From IMG/VR virus record IMGVR_UViG_3300030098_001361, positions 500-26,098 of that record: a stretch of DNA of 25,599 bases. One strand, given 5' to 3'. Every line of letters starts with the position of its first letter. Position 1 is the stretch's first letter. Below the pieces are notes generated by a model. It saw nothing but the letters and a program-made list of their open reading frames with translations. It had not been told where the DNA came from and did not search any database. This document shows, in pieces, positions 16,082 through 25,395 of the stretch. This DNA comes from a virus. Both the position numbers and the translations under genes were made by a program.

Positions 16082-16557
16082 TGAATCTTTCACGTAATTT
16101 TACTCTCTCAGAGTTAACTAAATCAGACACTGCAATACGTAGGGGTATAAACAATAACCCTAACGCAGAACAAGTAGAAAAATTAAAAGCATTGTGTGAG
16201 AATATCTTACAACCAGTGCGTGATCATTTTGGCAGGGTTAAGATTACTAGCGGATATCGTAGCCCAGAATTATGCACAGCGATAGGTAGTTCTGTAAATT
16301 CACAGCACGCCAAAGCTGAGGCGGCAGACTTTGAATGTGTTGGTGTAGATAACGCTGAACTTTTTGATTGGATCAAATTAAATCTTGAGCCAGATCAGCT
16401 GATTCTTGAGTTCTATACTCCAGGTGAACCTAACAGCGGATGGATACATTGTAGTTGGATACCTGAAGGTAGACGTGCATCGTTTTTACATGCGTATAAG
16501 TCGGAAGGTAAAACTAAATATAAACCTGTATTAGGTAAAGCAAAAGATTTATTTTAA
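16081..16557 (+). CDS. M15-type peptidase endolysin
   Basis: This 158-residue protein matches the peptidase M15A/M15_3 family, which cleaves peptide bonds in peptidoglycan stem peptides. The FTLSELTKS opening is typical of this family. The conserved ITSGYRSPEL turn is at residues 55-64. The zinc-binding block SQHAKAEAADF holds His76 and Asp83, and GWIHCSW gives the third ligand His123. The usual HxxGxAxD motif has Ala at the Gly position (Ala79). The length is normal for a single-domain phage enzyme; no signal peptide is present, so export would need the holin. The frame is open upstream to 16018, but the ATG at 16081 overlaps the holin stop and gives the standard family N-terminus. The last codons overlap, on the opposite strand, the end of the leftward small gene. 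Confidence 0.85.
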   Translation: MNLSRNFTLSELTKSDTAIRRGINNNPNAEQVEKLKALCENILQPVRDHFGRVKITSGYRSPELCTAIGSSVNSQHAKAEAADFECVGVDNAELFDWIKLNLEPDQLILEFYTPGEPNSGWIHCSWIPEGRRASFLHAYKSEGKTKYKPVLGKAKDLF

Positions 16558-16760
16558 CGACACATACAACCTATCATACTACCACTCCCATCATTCATTA
16601 TATGTAGATTTAAAGTGTCAACATAGCCTGTGAGTTTTAGTCTTAGGATATCACAGAGATCAAAACAATCAATCTCGCCCGTTAATACAATACCCTCCAT
16701 CATTTTTTTTGTTACGGGTATTAATTGATATAATCCATCGTTTAGTATTATTAAATCCAT
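16554..16760 (-). CDS. Small hypothetical protein downstream of the SNF2 helicase
   Basis: This 68-residue protein is on the leftward strand. It starts at 16760, ten bases inside the 3' end of the helicase gene, and stops at 16554 within the stop codon of the endolysin gene on the other strand. It begins MDLIILNDGLYQLIPVTKKM and carries four cysteines (C32, C36, C65, C67) as CxxxC and CxC, which might bind a metal, though the spacing is not a standard finger. The reading frame fills the space between convergent genes almost exactly, which supports it being real. I do not recognise a family. It is probably co-transcribed with the helicase. Confidence 0.55.
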   Translation of the reverse strand: MDLIILNDGLYQLIPVTKKMMEGIVLTGEIDCFDLCDILRLKLTGYVDTLNLHIMNDGSGSMIGCMCR

Positions 16761-18211
16761 TCTCTTAAATCTTCACCCATTATCTCAGTGGCTATATTAA
16801 CCTTATTTCTTAATGACTCGACAATCTTCTCATCCACTGTATCATCAGCCATCATATCTATATAAGTAACTTTATTTTTTTGACCTATCCTGTGGGCTCT
16901 ATCTTCTGATTGTAATCTCTTTTCTAAATCATAACTATTTGAATAATATATAACAGCTTTTGCCTCTGTTAGCGTAATACCATAACCACCTGTCTGCGGA
17001 TTACCTATAAAAAATCTAACTTTAGAATTAGGGTCTTGAAATTTTTTAATGTTCTCTTGTCTTTGGTCAGCGTTTATTGCACCATAATAGGTAACAATAG
17101 CCTCTGTTCCATATTTTAGATTACCCTCTTCGTCTTTCATATGAGAGATGGCTTTTATAATACTCTTAATATCATGGACATAGTTAGCCCAAATGATTAC
17201 CTTACCATCGACCTCTTCGATTAGATTAAGTAAGTCTTTAATTCTATTATTTTTTAACTCTATTACCTCATCATTATCGGTTTTCATATGACCACAGGTT
17301 ATCTGATGTAGTCGCATTAACTGTGTTAATACTGTGCTCGTTGACATAACCTTAGAGTTTAGTTCTGCGAGGGCCGTGGTTCGCATTTGATCGTAAAGCT
17401 GTCTCTGTTCTTTGGTTAATTCTACTCTATGTTTTATAAATAATTTTTTAGGTAAGTCCAAGCAATCCTCCTTTAATACTCTAAATGAAAATGGTTTAAT
17501 GTTTTTTTCTAGTTCTTCTATTCTTTGATAACCAGCAACTAGCTGGATTGATCTACCATTAATTAACACTCTACGCATAATGGCGTATCTATTTCTAAAA
17601 GAAACGTAAGAAAAATAGTTAAGTAAAAATGGATCTAAGAAATAACACTGACTAAATAAATCCAAAGGTGATTTAGTTACTGGTGATCCAGTAAGTATTC
17701 TACGATAAATAGCACCATCTGCTATCTTAATTATATTTTTTGTTCTAGCTGCACCTGGATTTTTTATTGTAGTGCTTTCGTCTACGGCTAACATAGCTTT
17801 ATGTGTTCTTAAAAATTTCTGTGCAGCATCTACACCTTTTTGTGTAGACAATGCTTCAACATTCATAATAAATATATGAAGATCATCATCAACTTTTAAT
17901 AAACTTTCAAATTGTTTTTTAAATTTTTTTGTATGATTAGCTTGCCACATTACCATTTTATGTTTAACGTGATCAGGCATATGTGTAGGTATCTCTTCAG
18001 AAAACCAATTTTTATAAACACCTTTTGGTGCTATAATTAGAGCACCATCTATCTTTCCGTTGTCATATAATATGGCTATGTTATCTATTAATACTTTAGA
18101 TTTACCTGTACCCATCTCCATAAACAATGCAAAATTTTTTTCAAATGCACTTCTTTCAAGCGCAATTGATTGATGTTGAAACGGTTTCGTTTTAAATTTA
18201 TATTTAAACAT
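16751..18211 (-). CDS. SNF2-type superfamily 2 helicase
   Basis: This 486-residue protein carries the full helicase motif set of SNF2/Swi2-like SF2 ATPases. It has a Q-like PFQHQ (10-14), Walker A MEMGTGKSK (31-39), motif Ia LIIAPKGVYKNW (58-69), motif II DEST (144-147) followed by TIKN, and motif III LTGSP (173-177). Motif V is GGYGITLTEA, and motif VI is QSEDRAHRIGQ (ends near 444), which is diagnostic for SNF2. The length is that of the compact phage version without accessory domains. These proteins move along or remodel DNA rather than unwind it; in phages the role is thought to be replication, repair or recombination. It is leftward, opposite to its neighbours, and is probably driven from the palindromic promoter 15 bases upstream of its ATG. 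Confidence 0.9.
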   Translation of the reverse strand: MFKYKFKTKPFQHQSIALERSAFEKNFALFMEMGTGKSKVLIDNIAILYDNGKIDGALIIAPKGVYKNWFSEEIPTHMPDHVKHKMVMWQANHTKKFKKQFESLLKVDDDLHIFIMNVEALSTQKGVDAAQKFLRTHKAMLAVDESTTIKNPGAARTKNIIKIADGAIYRRILTGSPVTKSPLDLFSQCYFLDPFLLNYFSYVSFRNRYAIMRRVLINGRSIQLVAGYQRIEELEKNIKPFSFRVLKEDCLDLPKKLFIKHRVELTKEQRQLYDQMRTTALAELNSKVMSTSTVLTQLMRLHQITCGHMKTDNDEVIELKNNRIKDLLNLIEEVDGKVIIWANYVHDIKSIIKAISHMKDEEGNLKYGTEAIVTYYGAINADQRQENIKKFQDPNSKVRFFIGNPQTGGYGITLTEAKAVIYYSNSYDLEKRLQSEDRAHRIGQKNKVTYIDMMADDTVDEKIVESLRNKVNIATEIMGEDLREWI

Positions 18212-18225
18212 TTTTACTTTCTTAT

Positions 18226-18260
18226 CTTGACATATAATTTATGATGTATTATATGTCAAG
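18226..18260. promoter_or_regulatory. Perfect palindromic divergent promoter/operator
   Basis: CTTGACATATAAT (18226-18238) is repeated exactly as its reverse complement at 18248-18260 around a nine-base spacer. On each strand the arm contains a consensus -35 (TTGACA). On the + strand TTGACA 18227-18232 lies 17 bases from TATATG 18250-18255; on the - strand TTGACA 18259-18254 lies 17 bases from TATATG 18236-18231. A perfect TATAAT also lies at 18233-18238 (+) and 18253-18248 (-). The element sits between the divergent SNF2 helicase (start 18211) and the replication operon (start 18266), so it is probably a shared promoter, and the symmetry also suits a dimeric repressor site. Confidence 0.75.
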
Positions 18261-18265
18261 TAGAA

Positions 18266-18661
18266 ATGACAGAAAGTATAGCAAAAGCATTAAACGATAA
18301 ATTTAATAACAAATCTATTGTTTATGTTATTCAAGCAGTACCTGGTACACGTGATGGTGCACCAAAAATAAATATTGTTGGAGCACAAGAATTTGGCGAA
18401 ATTAAGGTATTGTTAGATGAGGACAAACAAATAATGTTTAGTCCTGCACCTATGATCAGAAAAATGAAAAGGATGTTAAAAGACTTTTCAGATAATGATT
18501 ACTTGTTATTAACAGGTGATCCTGCTATGATCGGTGTTGCGTGTTCTGTTGTTTCTGAAGTAAACAATGGTAAATATAAACTTTTGAAGTGGGACAGGCA
18601 AGAAAGACAATACTATCCTATTTCAATTAATATACATGAAAGAGGTAATACTGATGAGTAA
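18266..18661 (+). CDS. Conserved hypothetical protein, first gene of the replication operon
   Basis: This 131-residue protein resembles a group seen at the head of replication gene clusters in marine phages, but without known function. Residues 1-55 read as a small alpha/beta unit (SIVYVIQAVPGTRDGAPKIN, then FGEIKVLLDED). A conserved segment DYLLLTGDPAMIGVACSVVS follows at ~77-96, and the end is LLKWDRQERQYYPISINIH. No nucleotide-binding loop is seen. There is no Shine-Dalgarno ahead of the ATG at 18266. If the 17-spaced promoter boxes are used, transcription would begin within a few bases of it, so translation may be leaderless or nearly so. It overlaps the next gene by eight bases. Confidence 0.65.
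   Translation: MTESIAKALNDKFNNKSIVYVIQAVPGTRDGAPKINIVGAQEFGEIKVLLDEDKQIMFSPAPMIRKMKRMLKDFSDNDYLLLTGDPAMIGVACSVVSEVNNGKYKLLKWDRQERQYYPISINIHERGNTDE
18642..18645 (+). promoter_or_regulatory. Ribosome binding site deciding the start at 18654
   Basis: GAGG within AAAGAGGT sits eight bases before the ATG at 18654. The in-frame ATG at 18636 has no such site and would add six residues inside the previous gene, so 18654 is preferred. Confidence 0.65.
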
Positions 18662-19241
18662 AGAAAGTAATATGGAAAAACTTTGGGAACAAGACCAAGG
18701 TAGCACTCTGCAAGAAGGCGGTGGCGATCTAGCGGAGTTAAATAAGAAAGTAAAAAAGTTAGAAGGACATCAAGATCAACTGGAAAAACTTGAAGAAGAA
18801 GTTGATAAAGTAAAAGCAGAAATAAAAAAGATTTCTTACGAAGAGATACCAGACCTTCTGGCTGAAAAAGGTATTGAGAAACTTACACTACATGATGGAA
18901 CCGTAGTGGAAGTTAAAAAAGTAATTAACGCATATCTACCAAAAGCGGATAGAGATCCCGAAGGTAGAGAAAAAGCGTTTAAATGGCTTCGAGATAACGG
19001 CCATGGTGATATTATTCAAAATAACATCATAGTTTCCTTTGGTCGTGGCGAAGATAACAAGGCGGTGGAATACGCTAGCCTTGCACAGCAAAAAGGTTAT
19101 TTACCTACTCAAAAGGTAGATGTACATAACCGAGTCCTTGTTGCTGCACTAAGGGAGCGTCTCGAAAAAGGACTAGAGATGCCTTCCGAACTATTTAACA
19201 TGTTTGTAGGAAACCAAACCAAAATAAAGAGGAGTAAATAA
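18654..19241 (+). CDS. Conserved phage protein with N-terminal coiled coil (DUF7173-like)
   Basis: This 195-residue protein has a long, strongly charged helix (residues ~25-65; NKKVKKLEGHQDQLEKLEEE, then VDKVKAEIKKI) that should form a coiled coil. It is followed by YEEIPDLLAEKGIEKLTLHDG and VVEVKKVINAYLPK. The C-terminal part contains REKAFKWLRDNGHGDIIQNN, then IVSFGRGED, then KVDVHNRVLVAALRERLEKG and MPSELFNMFVGNQTKIKRS. The order 'coiled coil, P-x-L-h-x-x-x-G, WLxxxGHGDxI' matches a conserved phage family of unknown function (DUF7173, from memory) found in replication regions. A DNA-binding or replisome accessory role is inferred from context. It begins eight bases inside the previous gene and ends two bases before the next. 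Confidence 0.65.
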   Translation: MSKESNMEKLWEQDQGSTLQEGGGDLAELNKKVKKLEGHQDQLEKLEEEVDKVKAEIKKISYEEIPDLLAEKGIEKLTLHDGTVVEVKKVINAYLPKADRDPEGREKAFKWLRDNGHGDIIQNNIIVSFGRGEDNKAVEYASLAQQKGYLPTQKVDVHNRVLVAALRERLEKGLEMPSELFNMFVGNQTKIKRSK

Positions 19242-19243
19242 CA

Positions 19244-20056
19244 ATGAGTCAAGAAGCAATGACCGATGCTAGTGGAAAGAAACTAGAGAAGAAAGAAGCA
19301 AATCTGCCTAGTGAACTTACTGCAATGTTTGAAGCAGATGCAGGAATGGGCATGGAGAATGTTGGATCAGAAGATGTTAAGATTCCGTTTTTAAGAATCT
19401 TACAGGATCTATCTCCGCAGGTAAAGGAGGGTAAAGGTGAATATATACAAGGTGCAAAACCTGGTATGATTATTAACTCTGTATCCAAAAAACTTTACGA
19501 TGGCAGAAAAGGTATCAATGTTCTACGATGCTATTATAAAAGAGAGTTCGTAGAGTGGCAAGATAGAGGTAAGGGTGATAGTGCACCTGTTGCTACATAT
19601 CCTGCTAACAGCGATATCATAACAAAAACAACTAGAGATCAGTTAGGAAAAGATAGATTACCTAGTGGTAATTATCTATCTAATACTGCTAATCACTATG
19701 TGTTGATGTTAGATGGTAATATGGTTACTGAAAGTGCCTTGATAGCAATGTCATTTTCACAGCTTGTAAAAAGTAGAGAGTGGAACACCATGATCACAAG
19801 TAACAAGCATATGAAAAAAGATGGCAGTATCATAAAGCCGCCTGCTTTTAGCCATGTTTACAATTTAAAAACTGTCTTACAATCAAATAGTAAGGGTGAG
19901 TTTTATAATTGGAACATCACAAAAGTTGGGCCATTGACAGATCCAAATGCTTACAAAACTGCAAAAGAGTTCTCAGAGGGTGTCTCTAAGGGCGCAGTAA
20001 GTGCTAAGTATGATGAGGATAAAGTCAATGATTCATCATCTGATTCGCCATATTAA
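19244..20056 (+). CDS. Replication-region protein, SSB-like candidate
   Basis: This 270-residue protein is a familiar marine-phage type in replication operons. It has an N-terminal ELTAMFEADAGMGM segment and the motif VKIPFLRILQDLSPQVKEGK at ~45-64. A middle section has many aromatic and basic residues suited to nucleic-acid contact (INVLRCYYKREFVEWQDRG, HYVLMLDG, REWNTMITSNKHMKKDG, FSHVYNLKT). The end is an acidic, Ser-rich tail closing with Tyr (DEDKVNDSSSDSPY), similar in layout to the acidic aromatic-tipped tails of phage single-strand binding proteins such as T7 gp2.5. The SSB role is inferred from tail and context, not from fold recognition. There is a strong AAAGAGGAG ahead of its ATG. 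Confidence 0.55.
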   Translation: MSQEAMTDASGKKLEKKEANLPSELTAMFEADAGMGMENVGSEDVKIPFLRILQDLSPQVKEGKGEYIQGAKPGMIINSVSKKLYDGRKGINVLRCYYKREFVEWQDRGKGDSAPVATYPANSDIITKTTRDQLGKDRLPSGNYLSNTANHYVLMLDGNMVTESALIAMSFSQLVKSREWNTMITSNKHMKKDGSIIKPPAFSHVYNLKTVLQSNSKGEFYNWNITKVGPLTDPNAYKTAKEFSEGVSKGAVSAKYDEDKVNDSSSDSPY

Positions 20057-20070
20057 ACGAATCCTAGGTA

Positions 20071-20102
20071 GTGGGCGATAAAGCGAGAGTGGAGTCGCCC
20101 AC
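20071..20102 (+). promoter_or_regulatory. GC-rich hairpin ahead of the primase gene
   Basis: GTGGGCGA (20071-20078) pairs perfectly with TCGCCCAC (20095-20102) across a 16-base purine-rich loop. It is unusually GC-rich for this genome. No T run follows, so it is not a standard terminator. It lies between an upstream stop at 20056 and a start at 20114, whose only preceding sequence has no Shine-Dalgarno, so it may control translation or RNA processing. An origin-type single-strand signal is another possibility. Confidence 0.5.
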
Positions 20103-20113
20103 GTTGCATATGT

Positions 20114-21634
20114 ATGGTAGAGAAGTTTATAGAGATATTTCAAGGTCTACGTCTAGGTTATGGTTTAACAAAACGAGGTAATGTATCAGAGCAAGGTAAA
20201 GTCGAGTCAAGTCATCGTTGGGTTGAAAAAGAATTAACCAAAGAGATCGTACAAGGTCATTTAGATGGGACAGGTGACAATTTAGGTATCGTACCAATTA
20301 ACGAAAATAATAAATGTAAATGGGGTGCGATTGATATAGACGAATATACTTTTAATCATAAAGAATTTACGCAGACGATGAGAGAATCAAAGATACCTCT
20401 TATTGTTTGTAGATCAACAAGTGGTGGTGCACACCTATATTTATTTACAAAAGATTTTGTAGAGGCAAAAGACATGAGACAGACTCTATTGAGTCTTACA
20501 GCATCTCTTGGACTCGTAACTAGAAAAGATAAAATATTTCCGCAACAAACTAAAATAAACGTAGAGACAAACGATAGAGGTAACTTCTGTAGTTTGCCAT
20601 ATTATAAACATAAAACAGGCACAAAATACGCCATAAATGACGATGGTTCTGCTGCTAGTCTAGAATCATTTTATTCTATGTATGATAGATATTCTGTAGA
20701 TCCATCGAAATTATCTGAAATAAAAGTTGAATTAAATGAGAAAGCTAAAGCAGTATCAAATGGCCCACCTTGTTTAGAGGTTCTTTGCTCACAAGGATTT
20801 CCTAAAGGCACAAGAAATAATGGATTATATAATATTGGAGTTTACTTAAAAAAATCTTTACCCGATGAGTGGGAAACTTTAATAGAAGATTACAATAGAA
20901 AATATTTAAATCCACCACTTAGTAATGCAGAGGTAGAAAATGTAAAAAAATCTTTGCGTAAAAAAGATTACAATTATAGTTGTAATGAGCAACCAATAAA
21001 TTCTTTTTGTAATAGAGAACTATGTAGAACTAGGAAGCATGGTATAGGTCTTGCCAATACAGCTTTACCCGAAATTAGTAACTTAACTAAAATAAATCAT
21101 AAACCGCAACCACAATGGTTTGTTAATGTAGACGGAGAAAGATTAGAATTAGAAACAGACGATTTACAAATACAAGCTAGATTTAAAAAAGCATGTATGG
21201 AACAACTAAACACAATCATACCAAGAGTTGCAGATAGACAATGGGATACCTTACTTAGAGTTTTATTTTCAGCAATACAGATTATTGAACCACCAGAAAG
21301 TTTATTAATTAAAAATCAATTAGAAGATTTGATAGAGGACTTTGCAGTAAGACGAGCACAGGGTAGACAGAAGAGTGATATACTTAGAGGTGTTCCTTAC
21401 ACAGCAGATGGAGAGACAATGTTTAGATGGAAAGATCTAAAAAAATTTTTAGAAAGACAGAAATGGTCATTTGATATTAGAAAAACTGGTGCCATGATAG
21501 AGGATATATTTAACACAACAGAAAAAACATTAAACATAGATGGTAAGAGAGTAAGGGTTTGGGTTATGAAAGCTATGGAAAAACAAAATACATCTTTTGA
21601 AAAACCAAAATATAAAGAGGAGGATGCGTTTTGA
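20114..21634 (+). CDS. Archaeo-eukaryotic-type (AEP) DNA primase
   Basis: This 506-residue protein should make primers for phage replication. Residues ~1-200 are an AEP catalytic domain close to the TOTE-type primases. The metal-binding D-x-D is in WGAIDIDEY (Asp74, Asp76), the second motif is CRSTSGGAHLYLF (Ser103-His107), and FCSLPYYKH is at ~158-166. The next ~110 residues form a C-terminal primase-type domain with PPC (Cys220), KGTRNNGLYNIGVYL, and the cluster C290-x8-C299-x4-C304, likely zinc or iron-sulphur binding. Residues ~320-506 are helical, with no recognised helicase motif, so this is a primase without a built-in motor. It has no Shine-Dalgarno and follows a hairpin. It is directly followed by an SF1 helicase gene (overlap TTGA), suggesting a replisome pair. 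Confidence 0.8.
   Translation: MVEKFIEIFQGLRLGYGLTKRGNVSEQGKVESSHRWVEKELTKEIVQGHLDGTGDNLGIVPINENNKCKWGAIDIDEYTFNHKEFTQTMRESKIPLIVCRSTSGGAHLYLFTKDFVEAKDMRQTLLSLTASLGLVTRKDKIFPQQTKINVETNDRGNFCSLPYYKHKTGTKYAINDDGSAASLESFYSMYDRYSVDPSKLSEIKVELNEKAKAVSNGPPCLEVLCSQGFPKGTRNNGLYNIGVYLKKSLPDEWETLIEDYNRKYLNPPLSNAEVENVKKSLRKKDYNYSCNEQPINSFCNRELCRTRKHGIGLANTALPEISNLTKINHKPQPQWFVNVDGERLELETDDLQIQARFKKACMEQLNTIIPRVADRQWDTLLRVLFSAIQIIEPPESLLIKNQLEDLIEDFAVRRAQGRQKSDILRGVPYTADGETMFRWKDLKKFLERQKWSFDIRKTGAMIEDIFNTTEKTLNIDGKRVRVWVMKAMEKQNTSFEKPKYKEEDAF
21614..21623 (+). promoter_or_regulatory. Strong ribosome site supporting a TTG start
   Basis: AAAGAGGAGG ends seven bases before TTG 21631. It lies inside the primase gene, so helicase translation begins before the primase stop. 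The out-of-frame ATG at 21624 abuts the site and cannot use it. Confidence 0.75.
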
Positions 21635-23133
21635 TTACAATCATACTTGGCCCACCTGGAACTGGTAAGACAGAAAAACTTTTATCTTTGGTTGAAGAAT
21701 ACTTATCAAAAAAAATACATCCAAGTCGTATAGGTTACTTTGCATTTACAAAGAAAGCTGCCAATGAAGCCCTATCAAGAGCCATGCATAAATTTAATTT
21801 ATCAGAGGATGATCTGCCATACTTTAGAACACTACACTCACTTGCATTTAGAAGACTATCTATAAATAAAAATCAAGTTATGAAAAAATTTCACTATCAA
21901 GACCTTGGAAAAAAGCTAGGTTTTTCAGTGGCTTACGCATCATATCAAGATGACTTTGGTGGGTACTTCTCATCTGATAGTGATTATCTAAATCTAATAT
22001 CTCTTGCTAGAGTCAGAGGTATACCTGTAGAGGAGCAGTTTGATTTAAATGAACATGAGGCAGATATAGAGAGAGATAAACTTATAATCATAGCCAATGA
22101 ACTTGAGAGATATAAAAAAGAAATAGGTTTGATTGATTACACAGACATGATTTTAAAATTTACACAAAAAGATGTAGCACCAAAACTAGATGTAATGTTT
22201 ATTGATGAGGCACAGGATCTTAGTTTACTACAATGGAAAATGGTAAAACAAATGTGGCAAAAATGTGACCAAGTATTTGTTGCGGGTGATGATGATCAAG
22301 CAATATTTAGATGGGCGGGAGCAGATGTTGATTCGTTTATAGCTTTAGAAGGTAAGACAATAGTATTAGATCAATCTTATCGTGTGCCATCAGGAGACAT
22401 ACATAACCTGTCAATCAACCTAGCAAACAGAATATCAAATAGAAGAGATAAGATATGGCGACCTAAAACATCAGAGGGTGTTTTAAGATACCACGGAGAT
22501 ATACATCAAGTTGACATGTCATCTGGCGAGTGGTTGGTGCTAGCTAGAACCAAATATCTATTAGAAGATACCAAAGATTTTTGCGAGGAGCGTGGTTGGT
22601 ACTATAATTTTAAAAATGAAAAGTCAATAAACGAAGATACCTTCAAAGCTATCACAGATTGGGAACATTGGCGTAAGGGTCAAGAATTAAATTATGATGC
22701 TGTAAAAAATATTTATGGACACATGAGTTCTAAAAAAGTTAATCAAGCACATAAGTTAGGTAAAACATTATTAAAAGATCAAACTTACATCATGGAAGAT
22801 TGTATGAAAGATTATGGATTAAACACAAATGATGTTTGGTACGAATCACTAGATGAGATTGATTTTCGTACAAAAGAGTATATAAGAGCAATGAGAAGAA
22901 ATGGAGAATTATTGAAACAAGAACCTAGAATAAAATTATCAACCATACATGGTATGAAGGGAGGTGAATGTGATAATGTTGTATTGTTGAGTGATCTTAC
23001 AGAAAATACGATGCGTAACTTTGAGAAAACTCCAGACGATGAAAACAGATTATTTTACGTTGGAGCAACAAGAACTAAAAAACAATTACATATCGTGGAA
23101 CCTAAATCATTTGACATGAGTTATCCGCTATGA
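21631..23133 (+). CDS. UvrD/Rep-like superfamily 1 DNA helicase
   Basis: This 500-residue protein has the whole SF1A motif series. Walker A is GPPGTGKT (7-14), motif Ia is FAFTKKAANEA (37-47), and TLHSLAF is at ~67-73. Motif II is FIDEAQD (190-196), III GDDDQAIF (219-226), IV QSYRV (248-252), V STIHGMKGG (437-445) and VI ENRLFYVGATRTK (471-483). It is shorter than bacterial UvrD (about 720 residues), lacking most of the 1B/2B accessory insertions, which is usual for phage versions. The role is most likely unwinding at the fork or in recombination and repair with the neighbouring primase and polymerase. It starts at TTG with an excellent ribosome site; its end overlaps the next ATG by four bases (ATGA). 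Confidence 0.9.
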   Translation: MITIILGPPGTGKTEKLLSLVEEYLSKKIHPSRIGYFAFTKKAANEALSRAMHKFNLSEDDLPYFRTLHSLAFRRLSINKNQVMKKFHYQDLGKKLGFSVAYASYQDDFGGYFSSDSDYLNLISLARVRGIPVEEQFDLNEHEADIERDKLIIIANELERYKKEIGLIDYTDMILKFTQKDVAPKLDVMFIDEAQDLSLLQWKMVKQMWQKCDQVFVAGDDDQAIFRWAGADVDSFIALEGKTIVLDQSYRVPSGDIHNLSINLANRISNRRDKIWRPKTSEGVLRYHGDIHQVDMSSGEWLVLARTKYLLEDTKDFCEERGWYYNFKNEKSINEDTFKAITDWEHWRKGQELNYDAVKNIYGHMSSKKVNQAHKLGKTLLKDQTYIMEDCMKDYGLNTNDVWYESLDEIDFRTKEYIRAMRRNGELLKQEPRIKLSTIHGMKGGECDNVVLLSDLTENTMRNFEKTPDDENRLFYVGATRTKKQLHIVEPKSFDMSYPL

Positions 23134-23369
23134 CAGATAAAGATATGTTTAAATCAACCACATATGATTCATTAGATAAGCAGGTCGATGGAAATCATTA
23201 TAAATCTATGAAGATACAACCCGCAGAGTTTATAAATGAAAATAAACTTTTGTTCGCGGAAGGGAACGCTATAAAATATATTTGCAGACATCGGTCTAAG
23301 GGAAAAGAAAAAGATATTAAAAAAGCTATTCACTATCTTGAGATGATTTTAGAGAGAGATTACTCATGA
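23130..23369 (+). CDS. DUF3310 family protein
   Basis: This 79-residue protein is a near-textbook DUF3310 domain: VDGNHYKSMKIQPAEF (19-34), FAEGNAIKYICRH (42-54) and KKAIHYLEMIL (64-74). The family is common in tailed phages; some members are annotated as nucleotide kinase-like by relation to T7 gp1.7, but no P-loop is present here, so enzymatic activity is not claimed. It sits in the replication operon between helicase and polymerase, with four-base overlaps on both sides. A role in nucleotide metabolism or replication control is inferred. Confidence 0.85.
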   Translation: MTDKDMFKSTTYDSLDKQVDGNHYKSMKIQPAEFINENKLLFAEGNAIKYICRHRSKGKEKDIKKAIHYLEMILERDYS

Positions 23370-23530
23370 AATGTTTCTATTGTGGTAATGAAGTAAGATG
23401 GAATAATGATTTTGATGCAGAAGATATTAGTCCTGACTCTGAATATTTAATTATAAGTATGTATAGCTGTGATAAATGTGATGCTTGGTATGAAGTATCT
23501 CATTCAAAAAAGGATAAAAAGAAAAAATGA
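23366..23530 (+). CDS. Small zinc-ribbon protein, 54 residues
   Basis: This 54-residue protein begins MKCFYCGNEVRW and later reads YSCDKCDAWYEV. The four cysteines C3, C6, C35 and C38 form two CxxC knuckles, the standard zinc-ribbon layout. The tail is very basic (SKKDKKKK), which would favour nucleic-acid binding. It overlaps the DUF3310 stop (ATGA) and its own stop overlaps the start of the DNA polymerase gene (ATGA at 23527-23530), so translation is probably coupled. Partner or target is unknown; a replisome or transcription accessory role is inferred from position. Confidence 0.75.
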   Translation: MKCFYCGNEVRWNNDFDAEDISPDSEYLIISMYSCDKCDAWYEVSHSKKDKKKK

Positions 23531-25395
23531 GAGGATTACAACAACCATTGTTCTCACCACAGACTGAGTGGGTACCACCATCAGAGTTTAGAGATTTAAG
23601 TAACTATGATGAGATAGCCATTGACCTAGAGACCTGCGATCCAAACATCAAGACGCGTGGTTCGGGGTCAGTGGTTGGTGATGGTAAGGTTGTAGGTGTA
23701 GCAGTGGCAACGATTGATTGGAGCGCATACTTTCCTTTTGATCACTTAGGTGGCGGTAACTTAGATAAGAACAGAGTTATATCCTGGTTTAAAGATGTAT
23801 TAAAAACACCTGCTACTAAAATATTTCATAATGCAATGTATGATGTGTGTTGGATAAGAGCCATGGGCCTACAGATAAATGGTGAGATTGTAGACACAAT
23901 GATAGCTGCTAGTCTGATTGATGAGAATAGATATACATATAATCTAAATGCAATCTCATATGAATTTTTAAAAGAAAGAAAAAGTGAAACAGAATTAAAC
24001 AATGCTGCAAAGGAGTGGAGTCTAGATCCAAAGGCAGAGATGTGGAAACTACCTGCAATGTATGTTGGTAAGTATGCAGAGAAAGATGCAGAGTTAACAT
24101 TTAAACTTTGGAATAGATTCAAACATGAGATCAGAGAACAGGATCTACAAAATGTATTTGATTTAGAGAAAGAGATATTCCCTTGTCTTGTTGATATGAA
24201 GTTTAAGGGAGTTCGCGTAGACGTTGAAAAAGCGAATCAAACCAAGAATGAACTAGCAACGAAAGAAAAACAGATATTACAAAACCTAAAAAAAGAAACA
24301 GGTATTGATGTAGAGATATGGGCGGCAGCCTCTATTGCAAAATTATTTGATAAATTAAAATTGCCGTATGATAGAACTGAAAAATCTAAAGCACCATCTT
24401 TTACTAAAAATTTTTTACAGAATCATTCTAATCCTCTAGTCAAACAGATAGCACAGGCTAGAGAGATAAACAAAGCACATACAACTTTCATAGATACTAT
24501 TTTGAAACATGAACATAAGGGTAGAATACATGCTGATATTAATCAGCTTAGATCAGATCAAGGAGGGACGGTTACAGGTAGATTCAGTTATTCTAATCCT
24601 AATCTACAACAGATACCTGCTAGAAACAAAGATCTAGGGCCATTGATTCGATCATTATTTATACCTGAGAAGGGTCATAAATGGGGTTGTTTTGACTACT
24701 CGCAACAAGAGCCGAGGTTGGTGGTTCACTACGCATCACTACAAAAATTGTTAGGAGTTGAGGATGTATTGGAGGCATATAATAAGGGTGATGCAGACTT
24801 TCATACTATCGTTGCTGAGATGGCAGAGATACCTAGAACACAGGCTAAGACTATAAATCTTGGTCTATTTTATGGTATGGGTAAAAACAAACTTCAAGCA
24901 GAATTAGGTGTGAGTAAATCTAGAGCAGAGGAATTGTTTCAACAATATCATAACAAAGTTCCTTTTGTTAAAGAACTAATGGATGCTGTATCCAGAAGAG
25001 CGCAAGAATCTGGTAAGATTAGAACCTTACTTGGCAGAAGATGTAGGTTTCATTTATGGGAACCAAATCATTTTGGTTTACATAAACCCCTACCGCACGA
25101 TGAGGCACAAAGAGAATATGGCCCAGGAATTAAAAGAGCAATGACATATAAGGCATTAAATAGATTAATACAGGGTTCCGCTGCTGACATGACTAAAAAA
25201 TCTATGATTGATTTATATAAGGAGGGAATCATACCACATATACAGATACATGATGAATTAGATGTCTCAGTAGAATCAGAAGAACAGGCAAAAAAGATAA
25301 TTGAAATTATGGAGAATGCTGTTAATCTTGAAGTTCCCAATAAAGTCGACTATGAATATGGAAAGACTTGGGGAGATATTTATGATAAAGGATAA
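23527..25395 (+). CDS. polA: Family A DNA polymerase with 3'-5' exonuclease
   Basis: This 622-residue protein is the replicative polymerase. The exonuclease domain has ExoI IAIDLET (Asp33, Glu35), ExoII FHNAMYD (Asp105) and ExoIII YAEKD (Tyr182, Asp186). The polymerase domain has motif A FDYSQQEPRL (Asp390, Glu395), the O-helix QAKTINLGLFYG (Lys441, Leu445, Tyr449) and motif C HDE (575-577). All catalytic residues are present. Leu445 occupies the place of E. coli Pol I Phe762; leucine there is known from virioplankton polymerases and linked to altered speed and fidelity. There is no 5'-3' exonuclease domain, as is usual for phage polymerases. The start overlaps the zinc-ribbon gene; the next gene begins two bases after the stop. 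Confidence 0.92.
   Translation: MRGLQQPLFSPQTEWVPPSEFRDLSNYDEIAIDLETCDPNIKTRGSGSVVGDGKVVGVAVATIDWSAYFPFDHLGGGNLDKNRVISWFKDVLKTPATKIFHNAMYDVCWIRAMGLQINGEIVDTMIAASLIDENRYTYNLNAISYEFLKERKSETELNNAAKEWSLDPKAEMWKLPAMYVGKYAEKDAELTFKLWNRFKHEIREQDLQNVFDLEKEIFPCLVDMKFKGVRVDVEKANQTKNELATKEKQILQNLKKETGIDVEIWAAASIAKLFDKLKLPYDRTEKSKAPSFTKNFLQNHSNPLVKQIAQAREINKAHTTFIDTILKHEHKGRIHADINQLRSDQGGTVTGRFSYSNPNLQQIPARNKDLGPLIRSLFIPEKGHKWGCFDYSQQEPRLVVHYASLQKLLGVEDVLEAYNKGDADFHTIVAEMAEIPRTQAKTINLGLFYGMGKNKLQAELGVSKSRAEELFQQYHNKVPFVKELMDAVSRRAQESGKIRTLLGRRCRFHLWEPNHFGLHKPLPHDEAQREYGPGIKRAMTYKALNRLIQGSAADMTKKSMIDLYKEGIIPHIQIHDELDVSVESEEQAKKIIEIMENAVNLEVPNKVDYEYGKTWGDIYDKG

Follow-up and report, generated by a model that had tools for sequence, protein, structure and literature searches.

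A perfect palindrome at the SNF2/replication junction of an HTVC023P-type pelagiphage probably consists of two superimposed divergent promoters

In E. coli, the promoters of bioA and bioB point apart and overlap each other at a palindromic operator, where BirA acts. Bidirectional promoters have been described in E. coli and other prokaryotes by Warman, Grainger and colleagues; the two directions share a -10 element, and their start sites lie 10–23 bp apart (PMC12825309). Competition between the directions is of consequence only if at least one of them is highly active (PMC12825309). The outcome is competition together with reduced noise, not bistability (PMC12825309). In alphaproteobacteria, over 60% of sigma70 promoters are without T at -7 (PMC8407463).

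The DNA analysed here, called the window, is a 25,599-nt stretch of the IMG/VR record IMGVR_UViG_3300030098_001361 and comes from an HTVC023P-type pelagiphage. The best matches among phage records are 023Pt_psg01, HTVC027P and HTVC023P, and their gene order resembles that of the window. The SNF2 helicase gene points leftward, and the genes for the Pam3_gp32-like protein, DUF7307, Pam3_Gp34, primase, UvrD-like helicase and PolA point rightward (Table 1). A sequence-only reading of the window placed a palindromic promoter/operator between the leftward genes and the rightward replication operon, and this gene context is correct. Complete relatives have further leftward genes elsewhere in the genome. 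Because the complete records are numbered from the first rightward gene, the element lies across or adjoins the record end. HTVC027P is reported to encode no RNA polymerase and is said to depend on that of its host; the main text of this RNA-seq paper leaves both SNF2 and the first rightward gene unnamed (PMC12753301).

The inverted repeat consists of a left arm, CTTGACATATAAT (18226–18238), a spacer, TTATGATGT (18239–18247), and a right arm, ATTATATGTCAAG (18248–18260). Read directly from the sequence, 13 of 13 bp are complementary, as had been claimed. This is the longest perfect inverted repeat in the window with loops of up to 20 allowed, and the runner-up has an arm of 10 bp. Dinucleotide shuffling of the whole window produced arms of at least 13 bp twice in 60 trials (0.033 per shuffle), and shuffling of the 54-bp intergenic region did so twice in 20,000; a chance origin of this arm length is unlikely. 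The window has one such element, with no second exact copy of the arm elsewhere in it. No exact match to the palindrome was found in bacterial or archaeal genomes, so a host origin is not backed.

Table 1. Features of the SNF2/replication junction and its flanking genes in the window
Feature	Position	Strand	Basis
68-aa ORF, second gene of the leftward unit	16554–16760	-	Overlaps SNF2 stop; counterpart annotated in 023Pt_psg01
SNF2-family helicase gene	16751–18211	-	PF00176 (E=7e-25), PF00271
AGAAAG in SNF2 leader, probable ribosome-binding sequence	18217–18222	-	Just after predicted leftward +1 (~18223); CTTTCT there in most relatives
Inverted repeat, 13-bp perfect arms, 9-nt spacer; probable overlapping divergent promoter element	18226–18260		Sequence, shuffles, folding
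-35 box TTGACA, predicted rightward promoter	18227–18232	+	TTGAC in 147/151 loci chosen by SNF2 homology
-10 box TATATG, predicted leftward promoter, 17-bp spacing	18231–18236	-	17-bp spacing on this strand in 128/150 distinct relatives
-10 box TATATG, predicted rightward promoter, 17-bp spacing	18250–18255	+	TATA kept at 16–18 bp in relatives; without T at -7
-35 box TTGACA, predicted leftward promoter	18254–18259	-	GTCAA core kept in all three geometries, HTVC027P-type included
Predicted rightward +1, 4-nt leader	18262	+	Inferred, 7 nt after -10; ATG 0–5 nt away in 59/60 N23/24 elements
Pam3_gp32-like gene, first of rightward replication operon	18266–18661	+	PF23992 (E=1.4e-32)
Remaining rightward operon: DUF7307, Pam3_Gp34, AEP primase, UvrD-like helicase, DUF3310, PolA	18636–25395	+	

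Both of the 17-spaced TTGACA/TATATG pairs that had been described as lying face to face were located, one on each strand, with a 2-bp overlap between each -10 and the -35 that faces it. We propose, with a probability of about 0.8, that the palindrome represents a pair of complete host sigma70-type promoters, one superimposed on the other across the two strands. The symmetry would then be a by-product that is not itself selected, since two near-identical promoters share the same bases through the 2-bp overlaps. We infer start sites at about 18262 on the plus strand and 18223 on the minus strand. The rightward start would fall around 4 nt before the Pam3_gp32-like ATG and give a practically leaderless replication-operon mRNA, and the mirror-image promoter would start around 12 nt before SNF2. 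Host RNA polymerase would use both. Because each -10 overlaps the opposing -35, the 35-bp site should hold one polymerase at a time, and firing one way would transiently block the other direction. Such mutual exclusion is plausible and could balance the helicase against the replication genes. The idea that the site acts as a bistable switch is unsupported, since exclusion yields competition rather than bistability and E. coli bidirectional promoters compete little at basal activity (PMC12825309).

TATAAT had also been reported on both strands. The hexamer within each arm is real, but it is not the -10 of the adjoining TTGACA, since the two hexamers directly abut. The TATAAT at 18233–18238 is an unlikely alternative rightward -10. 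The left arm keeps this AT better than the right arm does, which speaks for it, but it has no fitting -35 upstream and leaves the conserved TTGA and TATA columns unexplained.

With an E. coli-type matrix, each window promoter scores 7.4; 104 window sites exceed 7, and neither promoter stands out. As these scores are only middling, the single sequence is weak evidence for promoters and the case rests on comparison. Divergent junctions were gathered from IMG/VR through five SNF2 searches and one gp32-like search, and about 320 SNF2 loci were read. Two opposed promoters are found at the junction in nearly all loci with enough upstream sequence. A sample of loci was selected for homology to two distant SNF2 proteins, and 151 were usable. 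A TTGAC...GTCAA pair is present in 147 of these, and the remaining four are of the HTVC027P type.

The element spans 33–38 bp, usually with two TTGAC -35 boxes at discrete distances, either 23 or 24 nt (N23/24) or 26 to 28 nt (N26–28). The first geometry, N23 in the window and N24 in others, is TTGACATATAAT-N9-ATTATATGTCAA and its variants. The second is nearly always N27, as in TTGACAATTATATAAACACTACTATATAAGATGTCAA. The third, from HTVC027P, is CTTTCTAAAAAGGTATATAATACTTTGAAAGAAAAAAGTCAATG, with TTTACT-18-TATAAT rightward, TTGACT-17-TATATA leftward and a shared -10 region. In the psg01-type set, the pair lies directly upstream of SNF2 in 74 of 78 loci. The other four have extra sequence beside SNF2, including at least one clear leftward gene (L100), and an intact N27 element beyond it, before the rightward operon. 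Six loci in all were seen with extra sequence or genes between SNF2 and the element (L100, L112, L113, L059, L190 and L197; clear leftward genes in L100, L190 and L197), and the element stays before the rightward operon in each. It is absent from the HTVC023P isolate and its kin L011 and L013, whose first rightward gene differs.

Across all three geometries, 16–18(19) bp are kept inside each promoter while the arm-to-arm distance varies. The leftward spacing is mostly 17 bp (Table 1); the rightward spacer is 17, 18 or 16 bp in 63, 50 and 37 distinct elements, with the choice restricted to 16–18. TATATG on both sides occurs only in N23 elements and TATATT on both sides only in N24 elements. The extra base of N24 preserves 17 bp on both strands, and a split of this kind is what keeping that spacing on both would demand. 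Among the 44 distinct N23 elements, TATA is conserved at positions 7–10 and 24–27, and TTGACA and GTCAA are fully invariant. Since the search expression demanded TTGAC and GTCAA, their support is the count of 147 of 151 and not this invariance; conservation in motif-selected loci is circular for the -35 columns and was excluded from the evidence. The middle of the N23 elements is free except for a moderately kept A15 and A18-T19. In the window spacer and the N23 relatives, these form an A..GAT-like pattern outside both hexamer pairs.

Each strand has the boxes of a sigma70-type promoter, a TTGACA -35 and, 16–18 bp away, a TATAAT-like -10 that is kept in relatives. The -35 cores, the TATA spacing and the junction position are all kept across relatives and uphold the proposal of two divergent promoters that overlap fully and lie between SNF2 and the replication operon.

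The symmetry of the arms behaves differently from the promoter boxes. The palindrome had been called a natural dimer site whose arms might co-vary among related phages and which should stay symmetric in close relatives with the same gene order. Arm changes in N23 elements with window-type halves are one-sided in 13 cases and compensated in none, and all 13 fall at arm positions 11–12, outside the hexamers. Within the window's clade, L003, L005, L006 and L007 carry an altered outer base on one arm only, L005 has an additional one-sided change and the right arm of L008 is rewritten; the arms of L005 and L008 are thus broken in close relatives of the same gene order, the very loss that had been named beforehand as a refutation, and symmetry as such is not supported. 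Perfect arms of at least 12 bp are found in 18 of 147 loci. In N27 elements, the two inner arms match each other less well than do left and right halves paired at random (4.16 vs 5.15 of 13). A 70-row SNF2 tree requires eight switches between N23/24 and N26–28, of which supported branches force at least six, and at least four changes of the perfect-arm state; these counts could be too high if SNF2 and its promoter have recombined. Together, the one-sided changes and the distance switching give no indication of a dimer operator or of a requirement for symmetry.

A primary role of the palindrome as operator, bound by a dimeric regulator of phage or host that would repress both promoters or balance them, is therefore unlikely. 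Half-sites that shift among N23, N24, N26, N27 and N28 would change helical phase, the element is a single copy per genome and missing from HTVC023P, and TTGAC is already accounted for as a -35. An operator could explain why TTGAC/GTCAA is so widely kept and could also explain the 41 viral contigs with exact 12-bp arms, all at the SNF2/replication junction and with varying 9-nt spacers. Some of these are distant, with an SNF2 only 58–62% identical to the window's, and a protein that demands symmetry would account for arms that are exact even there. These distant relatives also speak against a one-off by-product, as which the perfect palindrome could be taken from the window and N27 clades alone. 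Under superimposed promoters, we read the recurring exact arms as a best fit that arises repeatedly where TTGACA/TATATG promoters share a 2-bp overlap. An additional symmetric ligand may act in the distant exact-arm lineages.

Another possible explanation is a single real promoter, with the other half due to chance or composition in AT-rich DNA. The ordinary matrix scores of the window fit this explanation, as does the rightward -10, which is poor in part of the N27 clade; among distinct N27 cores without TATATA, TGnTA, the extended -10 form, is present in 9 of 43. However, the N23 columns TTGA 1–4 and TATA 24–27 serve only the rightward promoter, and TATA 7–10 and TCAA 30–33 only the leftward one. 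Since columns useful to one promoter alone are kept for each, both are separately supported, and both divergent gene sets need a promoter at the junction. A single promoter is thus very improbable. The least probable explanation is a hairpin that works at the nucleic-acid level, whether as a terminator, as an RNA element or as a signal for single-strand replication. It draws on the clean 13-bp DNA hairpin formed by a 47-nt strand (-9.8 kcal/mol, z -5.6) and is disfavoured, as there is no T-run after either arm and no Rfam match, the position is divergent rather than convergent, and the pairing is lost in relatives, N27 included.

The replication operon mRNA probably starts nearly leaderless. 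Leaderless mRNAs occur in alphaproteobacteria. One leaderless start site is mentioned for Caulobacter (PMC4287350). The near absence of a leader before the ATG at 18266 holds as a prediction and recurs in the family. With +1 set 7 nt after the -10 and the first ATG after the element taken as the start, the distance is 0–5 nt in nearly all N23/24 elements (Table 1) and in 42 of 86 N26–28 elements. In many N27 elements, the predicted +1 is the A of the ATG itself (GTCAATG), without a preceding ribosome-binding sequence. The HTVC027P-type form has GAAAG in its rightward leader.

Bidirectional promoters are already known, and the fully overlapped geometry of the window is a variant of them. As in the promoters of Warman, Grainger and colleagues, pseudo-symmetric DNA between divergent genes would direct divergent sigma70 transcription, and binding of one polymerase would exclude the other. 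The N23–28 elements differ in that their -10s overlap or abut the opposing -35, with predicted starts around 33–39 bp apart. In the window itself, the -10s are separate and the predicted starts 38–39 bp apart, so it falls outside the published kind with a shared -10 and closer starts. The HTVC027P-type form does fit that kind by sequence, with about 21 bp between starts and a shared TATATAAT. A limited literature search found no prior description of the window geometry, in which each -10 lies inside the opposing -35 and starts are about 38 bp apart. Like bioA/bioB, the promoters point apart on one short palindromic stretch; unlike bioA/bioB, the pelagiphage arms do not co-vary, and there is a single element per genome without a known regulator.

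The boxes resemble alphaproteobacterial sigma70 promoters without T at -7, with a TTGACA -35, a spacer of about 17 bp and a TATAnn -10. Many -10 boxes in the family end in G, A or C, which would be poor for E. coli but holds for most of the alphaproteobacterial promoters that have been mapped (PMC8407463). Ordinary promoters of this class differ from the pelagiphage element, which superimposes two on opposite strands.

The comparison provides a base-level prediction, drawn from several hundred natural variants, of the promoter that would start the replication genes, and the variant set reveals which bases and spacings can stand in for one another. Translation of the first replication gene is also predicted to be leaderless. 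Bidirectional promoters would be extended to fully superimposed -35/-10 pairs, where polymerase competition should be strongest. In phages that infect the most abundant ocean bacteria, the host polymerase could start the helicase or the replication operon, probably not both at once. A more tentative and rather doubtful idea is that such elements, with -10s embedded in opposing -35s and strictly exclusive directions, form a distinct class of fully superimposed bidirectional promoters. They might then serve as a fixed early ratio-setter between SNF2 helicase and a leaderless replication operon in the most abundant ocean phage group.

Several smaller observations were made among the relatives. 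A leaderless or near-leaderless first rightward gene is predicted in L026–L038 and L257–L416, and in some cases its ATG overlaps the leftward -35 (GTCAATG). In phage DSL-LC04, AGAAAGGAG-like sequences occur on both sides, and the counterpart of the SNF2-leader AGAAAG takes the AGAAAGGAG form. In L040–L045, another gene lies upstream of the gp32-like gene and there is no divergent SNF2; L040 and L041 have a one-way promoter-like TTTACA-17-TATAAT before the same replication gene.
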